From Aggregatilineales bacterium (lineage in GTDB: Bacteria; Chloroflexota; Anaerolineae; Aggregatilineales; Phototrophicaceae): 49,048 nucleotides of DNA. This document shows, piece after piece, positions 4,630 through 25,708 of the stretch (position 1 is the stretch's first letter; the number at the start of each line of letters is the position of its first letter). The position numbers and the translations under genes are program-made. The stretch is taken from NCBI GenBank assembly GCA_029975765.1, contig JARKOK010000112.1:1-49048 (forward strand). The letters run 5' to 3'. The notes beneath the pieces are model-generated. The model ran no database searches and was not told the origin of the DNA. It saw nothing but the letters and a program-made list of their open reading frames with translations.

Positions 4630-4857
4630 ATGCAGGCAGCTTTGCAGATTGCTTCCATCATCATTTCAATTGTGCTGATTATCCTGATTCTGCTTCAGGT
4701 CAAGGGCGGCGCGCTGGGCAACCTGCTCGGCGGTGAAACCGGTGGTTTTGCGCGCACGCGGCGCGGTCTGGAAAAGACTCTGTTTAATATCACCATCGGC
4801 CTGTCCATTGCCTTTCTGGCGATTTCAATTCTCTCGGTGGTGGCGTTCAGAAGTTAA
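4630..4857 (+). CDS. secG: Preprotein translocase subunit SecG
   Basis: A 75-residue protein with the SecG layout: two hydrophobic helices (about 5-22 and 52-72) around a Gly-rich cytoplasmic loop (KGGALGNLLGGETGGF, then RTRRG). SecG assists SecYE in protein export. AGGAG about 10 nt upstream supports the ATG. The gene lies alone between the S41 protease and the peptide-binding protein; the 27-bp gap to the latter means the two may share a transcript. In this family of small proteins the loop motif is the most diagnostic feature, and it is well kept here. Confidence 0.92.
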   Translation: MQAALQIASIIISIVLIILILLQVKGGALGNLLGGETGGFARTRRGLEKTLFNITIGLSIAFLAISILSVVAFRS

Positions 4858-4884
4858 CTTCTGAAACAGCCGCCTTCAACACCC

Positions 4885-24086: not shown

Positions 24087-24124
24087 TTGATAGACAATCC
24101 GGTTTATTCAGAATGGTAAAGTAC

Positions 24125-24841
24125 ATGGAAGTAAACACGACACCTTCGCCACCCCGCAGCCCATCCCAACGCAGTACGCTGGTAATTTTTGTCATCATCG
24201 GTGTTGCCGTCATCGCGGCTGGGCTGGCGATTCTGGTGGCATACAATCAGACTGCCGTCACTTCAACCGGTTATCAGGGAATGCAGTTCTCGCGGCAGCC
24301 GGATGGTGGCTTCGTCCTCGGCAACCCGGACGCGCGTATCACGGTGGTCGAGTGGGCCGACTATGCCTGACCGGCCTGCATTACGTATCTGGCAGATACG
24401 AACAAGTTCATTGAAGAATACGTAAAAACCGGCAAAGCCAATTTCGAATTTCGGATTATGCCCACTGCCGGCGGCCAGTTGACCCAGTTCCTCGGCGAAC
24501 TGGCGGTCTGCCTGGATGAACAACGTACCGGCGCCTTCTGGGAAGCCAAAGACACCCTGTTTAACATGGCCGCCAGTGGTCGTTACGATGGCAACTCCGG
24601 GCGAAACCTGACACAGACTTTAGGGCTGGACTACAACAGGGCGCTGGAATGTACCCGAACCAGCAGTCAGGTTCTCACGGATGCCCAGCTCGGCCAGACC
24701 CTCGGCGTCACCGGCACACCTGCTGTCATGATTCGCATTGATGACGCTGAACCCATCTGGATCAGCGCCGGCGGCCAGCAGTTTAGCCGGGGCGGCGTGC
24801 CTTTTGCCGTTCTCGCCAGCGTCGTGGACTCCAATTCGTAG
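24125..24841 (+). CDS. Putative selenoprotein: membrane-anchored DsbA-like thiol oxidoreductase (UxxC)
   Basis: Read through an in-frame UGA at 24368-24370, this gives a 238-residue protein. It has a membrane helix at about 18-38, a linker (DGGFVLGNPDARITVVEWADYA), then U82-P83-A84-C85 at the active-site position, and a DsbA-like thioredoxin fold with the cis-Pro motif GTPAV. The neighbour at 24998 has Cys80-Pro-His-Cys83 at the same place. Beyond the UGA 156 codons stay open to TAG, with about half of residues identical to the neighbour, including PTAGGQ, CLDEQR, GRYDGN and GLDY. A hairpin right after the UGA fits a bacterial SECIS. An upstream ATG (24113) is possible; neither has a strong Shine-Dalgarno sequence. 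Predicted role: envelope disulfide/redox chemistry. The alternative is a recent nonsense mutation. Confidence 0.78.
24384..24400 (+). promoter_or_regulatory. Candidate bacterial SECIS element
   Basis: CGTATCT at 24384-24390 and AGATACG at 24394-24400 form a perfect 7-bp stem with a GGC loop. Twenty nucleotides separate the UGA from the loop, and the loop starts with G, both within the published description of bacterial SECIS elements. The cysteine paralogue has no such hairpin at the equivalent position. Confidence 0.65.
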
Positions 24842-24997: not shown

Positions 24998-25708
24998 ATG
25001 GCTTCTAATGTCCAACCTGCTAAACTCACGGCCTCACGAAATACACTGGTTATTGTGGCGATTATCGGTATCGCGGTCGTGGCTGCCTTCGCGGCCATTC
25101 TGCTGGCAAATAACAATACCGCCGTGTCCATCCAGAATTACGCTGACGTACCTATGTCCCGCACGGCGGACGGCGGGTTCGTCCTCGGTAATCCTGACGC
25201 TCGTATCACGATTGTTGAGTTTGCGGATTTTGCCTGCCCTCACTGCATTGACTATCTGCCAACCAGCGAACGGGTGATTAATGACTTCGTAAAAACGGGG
25301 CAGGCCAGATTTGAATATCGCACCTTCCCTACCGCCGGCGGCCAGGTGACGGCTTTTCTCGGCGCAATTGCCGTTTGCCTGGATGAGCAGCGTCCCGGCG
25401 TATTCTGGGAAGTGAAGGATCGTCTGTATCAGATGGCCTCAACCGGGCGTTATGATGGCAATACCGGACGGACTATCGCCCAGAGCCTCGGCCTCGATTA
25501 CAGTGCCGCCCTCGCCTGCGCGCAGTCCCAAAAACAGATTGAAACCGATGTCGCGGTGGGCCAGCGGGCCGGCGTACAGGGCACCCCCGCCGTTTTGATT
25601 CGGGTTGACGGTGGCGATCTGGAATGGATTCAGGTGGGCGGTCAGCGATATGATCGCGGCGGCGCGCCCTACGAGATCATTGCCGCCGCTGTCCAGGCGT
25701 ATCAGTAG
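24998..25708 (+). CDS. Membrane-anchored DsbA-like thiol oxidoreductase (CPHC)
   Basis: A 236-residue protein with a membrane helix at about 16-37 and a DsbA/thioredoxin-4-like domain facing outside. The redox pair is Cys80-Pro-His-Cys83 in FADFACPHCIDYL, the DsbA-type dipeptide, and the cis-Pro loop reads GTPAVLI. Two further cysteines (in VCLDEQ and LACAQ) match those of the upstream UGA-containing copy. It likely oxidises or isomerises disulfides in exported proteins. It is a tandem duplicate of the gene at 24125, each with its own candidate promoter (here TTGATA at 24929-24934 and AACAAT at 24952-24957). No DsbB or VKOR gene is nearby. Confidence 0.9.
   Translation: MASNVQPAKLTASRNTLVIVAIIGIAVVAAFAAILLANNNTAVSIQNYADVPMSRTADGGFVLGNPDARITIVEFADFACPHCIDYLPTSERVINDFVKTGQARFEYRTFPTAGGQVTAFLGAIAVCLDEQRPGVFWEVKDRLYQMASTGRYDGNTGRTIAQSLGLDYSAALACAQSQKQIETDVAVGQRAGVQGTPAVLIRVDGGDLEWIQVGGQRYDRGGAPYEIIAAAVQAYQ

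Follow-up and report, generated by a model that had tools for sequence, protein, structure and literature searches.

One gene in the window (the whole stretch of 49,048 nucleotides that was analysed) is, with a probability of about 0.94, a selenoprotein gene: judged from its sequence, it would encode an extracytoplasmic, membrane-anchored DsbA/DsbG-like oxidoreductase whose active site is U82-P-A-C85. An earlier note on this DNA had read the gene as a membrane-anchored selenocysteine (Sec) disulfide oxidoreductase, and this reading is supported by the Sec genes of the host genome, by a UGA-bearing orthologue in a second species of the same genus (genome G006), by a hairpin that follows the UGA and by the pattern of selection along the gene. 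The features of the locus are the following:

24125-24841, plus strand: predicted selenoprotein gene, Thioredoxin_4 / DsbA-like thiol-disulfide oxidoreductase, 238 amino acids, Sec82 (translation; PF13462, E=8e-17)
24176-24244, plus strand: hydrophobic stretch near the N terminus (about residues 18-40), probably a single membrane anchor (read from the sequence)
24368-24370, plus strand: in-frame UGA, very probably read as Sec, in the UPAC active site (G006 shares the UGA codon; the remaining aligned homologues have Cys)
24384-24400, plus strand: CGUAUCU-GGC-AGAUACG, a hairpin of 7 bp, putatively the apical part of a bacterial SECIS element (shared, with the loop GGA, by the UGA gene of G006)
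24713-24727, plus strand: GTPAV, the Thr-cisPro motif that partners the active site in the thioredoxin fold (T198 and P199, conserved in 44/44 homologues)
24998-25708, plus strand: tandem Cys paralogue with the motif CPHC, 236 amino acids (open reading frame; clusters in the tree with its Cys counterparts from G002, G004 and G014)

An oxidoreductase frame across an in-frame UGA

When TGA is translated as U, the frame yields 238 residues, of which only residue 82 is U (...EWADYA-U-PAC-ITYL...), and ends in TAG, in agreement with the proposal that the UGA hides an oxidoreductase frame open beyond it. No frameshift or further stop occurs in the gene, and its start is supported by the G006 orthologue, which begins MEPNTR.... 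Translation with table 11 splits the frame into an 85-aa ORF (24113-24370) and a 127-aa fragment (24458-24841), exactly the truncated protein and fragment that the earlier note had foreseen; standard annotation pipelines would thus misannotate the gene, cutting it in two.

The protein belongs to the PF13462 family (Thioredoxin_4), with 62.3 bits against a gathering cut-off of 23.2 and E=8e-17 when U is counted as Cys. Its best sequence matches among solved structures are oxidoreductases of the BdbD/DsbA type (PDB 3eu3, 4n30, 3gyk and 4pwp; E from 4e-9 to 9e-7), with which it shares low identity; to our knowledge, none of these four is a selenoprotein. The UGA had been placed at the first active-site Cys, and the alignment of 44 homologues bears this out, since residue 82 is Cys in 42 of them and UGA in two, while the second Cys of the motif, C129, C176 and the Thr-Pro pair 198-199 are invariant in all 44. 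The C129/C176 pair (numbering of the Sec protein) is an addition of this family relative to the BdbD/DsbA-type proteins; the tandem paralogue has it too, and it may form a structural or a relay disulfide. A structure model based on an alignment of two rows was of poor quality (pLDDT 46.7) and placed a helix at residues 13-42 with low confidence.

The protein would be exported and held by its N-terminal anchor, and Sec82 would act as the attacking residue and form a Se-S bond with Cys85, the Thr-cisPro element being retained in the fold. Three VKOR homologues are encoded in the window genome and one in G006, and distant DsbD/CcdA-type transmembrane proteins are also present; a VKOR-type, quinone-linked partner may re-oxidise the Sec oxidoreductase. 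The partner, the direction of redox flow and the substrates are inferred.

Sec machinery and a putative SECIS hairpin

A search of the host genome for selA, selB, selD and tRNA-Sec, which had been suggested as a check, returned all four: a tRNA-Sec with the anticodon UCA (72 bits), SelB, SelA (542 bits) and SelD (358 bits). The genome is a draft assembly of 5.97 Mb in 594 contigs with 6.65% contamination. SelB shares 81.5% identity with its G006 counterpart and 63-76% with others, and the tRNA-Sec differs from that of G006 at 2 of 93 positions, the acceptor stem being paired in both cases (pairing by eye). Because they are so close to their same-genus counterparts, SelB and tRNA-Sec look native, and contamination as the origin of the Sec genes was rejected for these two. 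With these parts in place, SelB bound to the hairpin and carrying Sec-tRNA(UCA) would insert Sec at the UGA, where a release factor would otherwise terminate translation.

As a separate observation, the SelD gene of the window genome (L013; G000:C448:10039-10971, minus strand) also contains an in-frame UGA, in the motif CAGUASKLGPG, and a stable stem-loop (-20.5 kcal/mol) comes after it; at least one further selenoprotein is therefore very probably encoded in this genome.

The hairpin of the window gene has a stem of 7 bp and a loop of 3 nt (GGC) that begins 20 nt past the UGA, and the UGA gene of G006 has the same hairpin with the loop GGA; the pattern CGUAUCU-GGN-AGAUACG is absent from the five Cys copies examined (G002, G004, G014, G017 and the tandem copy). 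The bacterial SECIS model asks for a loop of 3-9 nt, a stem of 4-16 bp, a G in the first two loop positions and a spacing of 16-37 nt (PMC13188914), and the window hairpin agrees with it on loop, stem, guanosine and spacing. The same model gives a minimum free energy of at most -7.5 kcal/mol as a guideline (PMC13188914); the window element folds at -6.7 kcal/mol, a little weaker than this guideline, when the hairpin alone or the 42 nt after the UGA are considered and at -9.9 kcal/mol for 45 nt including the UGA, and the G006 element at -12.3 kcal/mol. Compared with its own shuffled versions, the 42-nt stretch shows no extra stability (z -0.30).

A stricter search, for a perfect 7-bp stem with a GG or GU loop at SECIS spacing after a TGA, found 2 cases among the 1583 TGAs on both strands of the window, one of them being the UGA of the predicted selenoprotein. 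The other (minus strand, 4878) adjoins a perfect 20-base palindrome, TTCAGAAGTTAACTTCTGAA, at 4846-4865.

The codons following the UGA were also compared between the two UGA genes. Conserved residues have identical codons in 7 of 7 cases within the 12 codons after the UGA versus 47 of 92 beyond them (Fisher p=0.015), and in 9 of 9 up to codon +19 (p=0.004), a signal that rests on 7 to 9 codons; such codon identity just after the UGA is as expected if an RNA structure adds constraint.

A second UGA gene and other readings of the UGA

The orthologue in G006 (G006:C12:77722-78429) shares 62% protein identity with the window protein, and its UGA occupies the corresponding codon (EFADYT-U-PAC). This orthologue carries the sole other in-frame UGA among the homologues listed from 98 family genomes, so that the UGA form is known from two species only and the remaining homologues have Cys, the mixture of U and C that the earlier note had proposed to look for. 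G006 also has tRNA-Sec and SelB. Moreover, its UGA gene terminates in TGA, and therefore UGA has two meanings, Sec and stop, in one gene. A comparison of the two UGA genes gives a pN/pS of 0.421 for the part upstream of the UGA and of 0.420 for the part downstream; the region past the UGA is therefore under the same constraint as the region before it.

These data bear directly on the other explanations of the UGA. It could be a true stop in a decaying pseudogene of the tandem duplicate, given that an intact Cys copy adjoins the gene, so that its loss would be tolerated, and that table 11 yields two fragments. This is very unlikely, because G006 has the UGA at the same codon in its only copy at the locus, purifying selection continues equally past the UGA (pN/pS 0.42), the UGA sits precisely at the position of the catalytic Cys, and the genome has a complete Sec machinery. 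The scattered stops and frameshifts that the earlier note had named, for close relatives, as counter-evidence are lacking in the window gene, and its close relative in G006 keeps the UGA. The chance that the real codon is TGC or TGT and was misread in sequencing or assembly is close to nil: the assembly is a draft and TGA is one base away from TGC, but TGA recurs at the same codon in another species, in a protein of 62% identity, and the hairpin is found only in the two UGA-bearing genes.

The UGA could also be read through by a route other than Sec, either in a reassigned code or by near-cognate suppression that would insert Trp or Cys. In the window 13 of the 32 long ORFs stop at TGA, so there is no global reassignment of UGA, and the earlier note had rightly taken it as an ordinary stop elsewhere in the window. 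Moreover, the UGA stands where homologues have an invariant catalytic Cys, all the Sec genes are present, and a hairpin of the SECIS type follows the UGA, all of which makes this route extremely improbable and favours insertion of Sec.

Proposed origin of the Sec form and its relation to known selenoproteins

The tandem paralogue (24998-25708) is 55% identical to the Sec protein over the alignment and has, as already noticed, CPHC at the position of UPAC. A maximum likelihood tree of 63 proteins groups the two UGA proteins in a clade of their own (support 100/98) nested within Cys homologues, and this clade adjoins one that unites the tandem Cys copy and the Cys orthologues from G002, G004 and G014 (95/79). 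The locus itself is recognizable in several relatives: G002, G004, G006 and G017 have an isochorismatase-like gene on its downstream side, and G002, G004 and G017 have a pyrimidine phosphorylase gene on its upstream side. Each of these four genomes has one thioredoxin-like gene at the locus, with UGA in G006 and Cys in G002, G004 and G017. The window genome has the Sec and Cys copies side by side, and at this locus G006 has the Sec copy alone. SelB and tRNA-Sec are present in G002, G004 and G014, which yet have Cys at this position; neither was found in G017, whose genome is 85% complete. A scan of contigs returned one relative, of the Cys form.

The tree makes the Sec form an apparently separate change, arisen from the Cys form within the genus after or alongside gene duplication. 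The simplest reading would be a duplication and a Cys-to-Sec change in one copy, followed by different losses. Changes from Cys to Sec are a general trend among UxxC proteins (PMC1794560), and the change proposed for this genus matches that trend. It is conceivable, though we put it forward only tentatively, that the two copies have since specialised, for example with respect to selenium supply, oxidant stress or substrate, and that the sister species retained just the Sec copy there; if this were true, the genus would capture both the switch from Cys to Sec and the emergence of a SECIS element.

The earlier note had called the protein a new selenoprotein, which holds for the gene and its subfamily; our literature searches found no paper describing this subfamily. 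It does not hold for the kind of protein, as DsbG-like UxxC selenoproteins with PF13462 have already been catalogued (PMC1088965, PMC1794560, PMC9312934). These share with the window protein the Pfam domain, the UxxC motif and Sec in place of the first active-site Cys; the window protein differs in belonging to another lineage, in a seemingly recent change within one Chloroflexota genus and in having a tandem Cys paralogue. A 2006 survey counted only three selenoproteins for Chloroflexota (PMC1794560), to which a separately evolved subfamily would now be added. The tandem Sec/Cys pair, set beside relatives of the same genus that have only a Cys or only a Sec copy in the syntenic locus, offers a natural comparison that bears on the reasons for which disulfide oxidoreductases change from Cys to Sec in some lineages and on how a SECIS element arises inside a coding sequence, and the Sec gene beside its Cys paralogue is a convenient pair for testing what Sec contributes.

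A close known group, of the same superfamily and phylum, is NF041057, the Rcas_1661 thioredoxin-like (seleno)lipoproteins, in which Sec and Cys members are mixed; the Rcas_1661 family is described as a 'DsbG-like protein' with a UxxC motif (PMC13188914). Membership of the window protein in NF041057 was rejected, since it scores 75.2 bits against a curated cut-off of 190 and falls in a separate clade (100/100); the G006 protein scores 84 bits against the same cut-off. NF041057 members are described as lipoproteins, whereas the window protein carries a hydrophobic anchor at its N terminus. A tree that unites all UGA proteins of the phylum in one clade was likewise rejected (AU p about 1e-62). 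Many NF041057-type genes of other Chloroflexota have one in-frame TGA (L114, L116, L119, L121, L128-L133, L135-L138, L140 and L141), and in the tree they are interspersed with Cys forms, suggesting repeated exchange between Sec and Cys.
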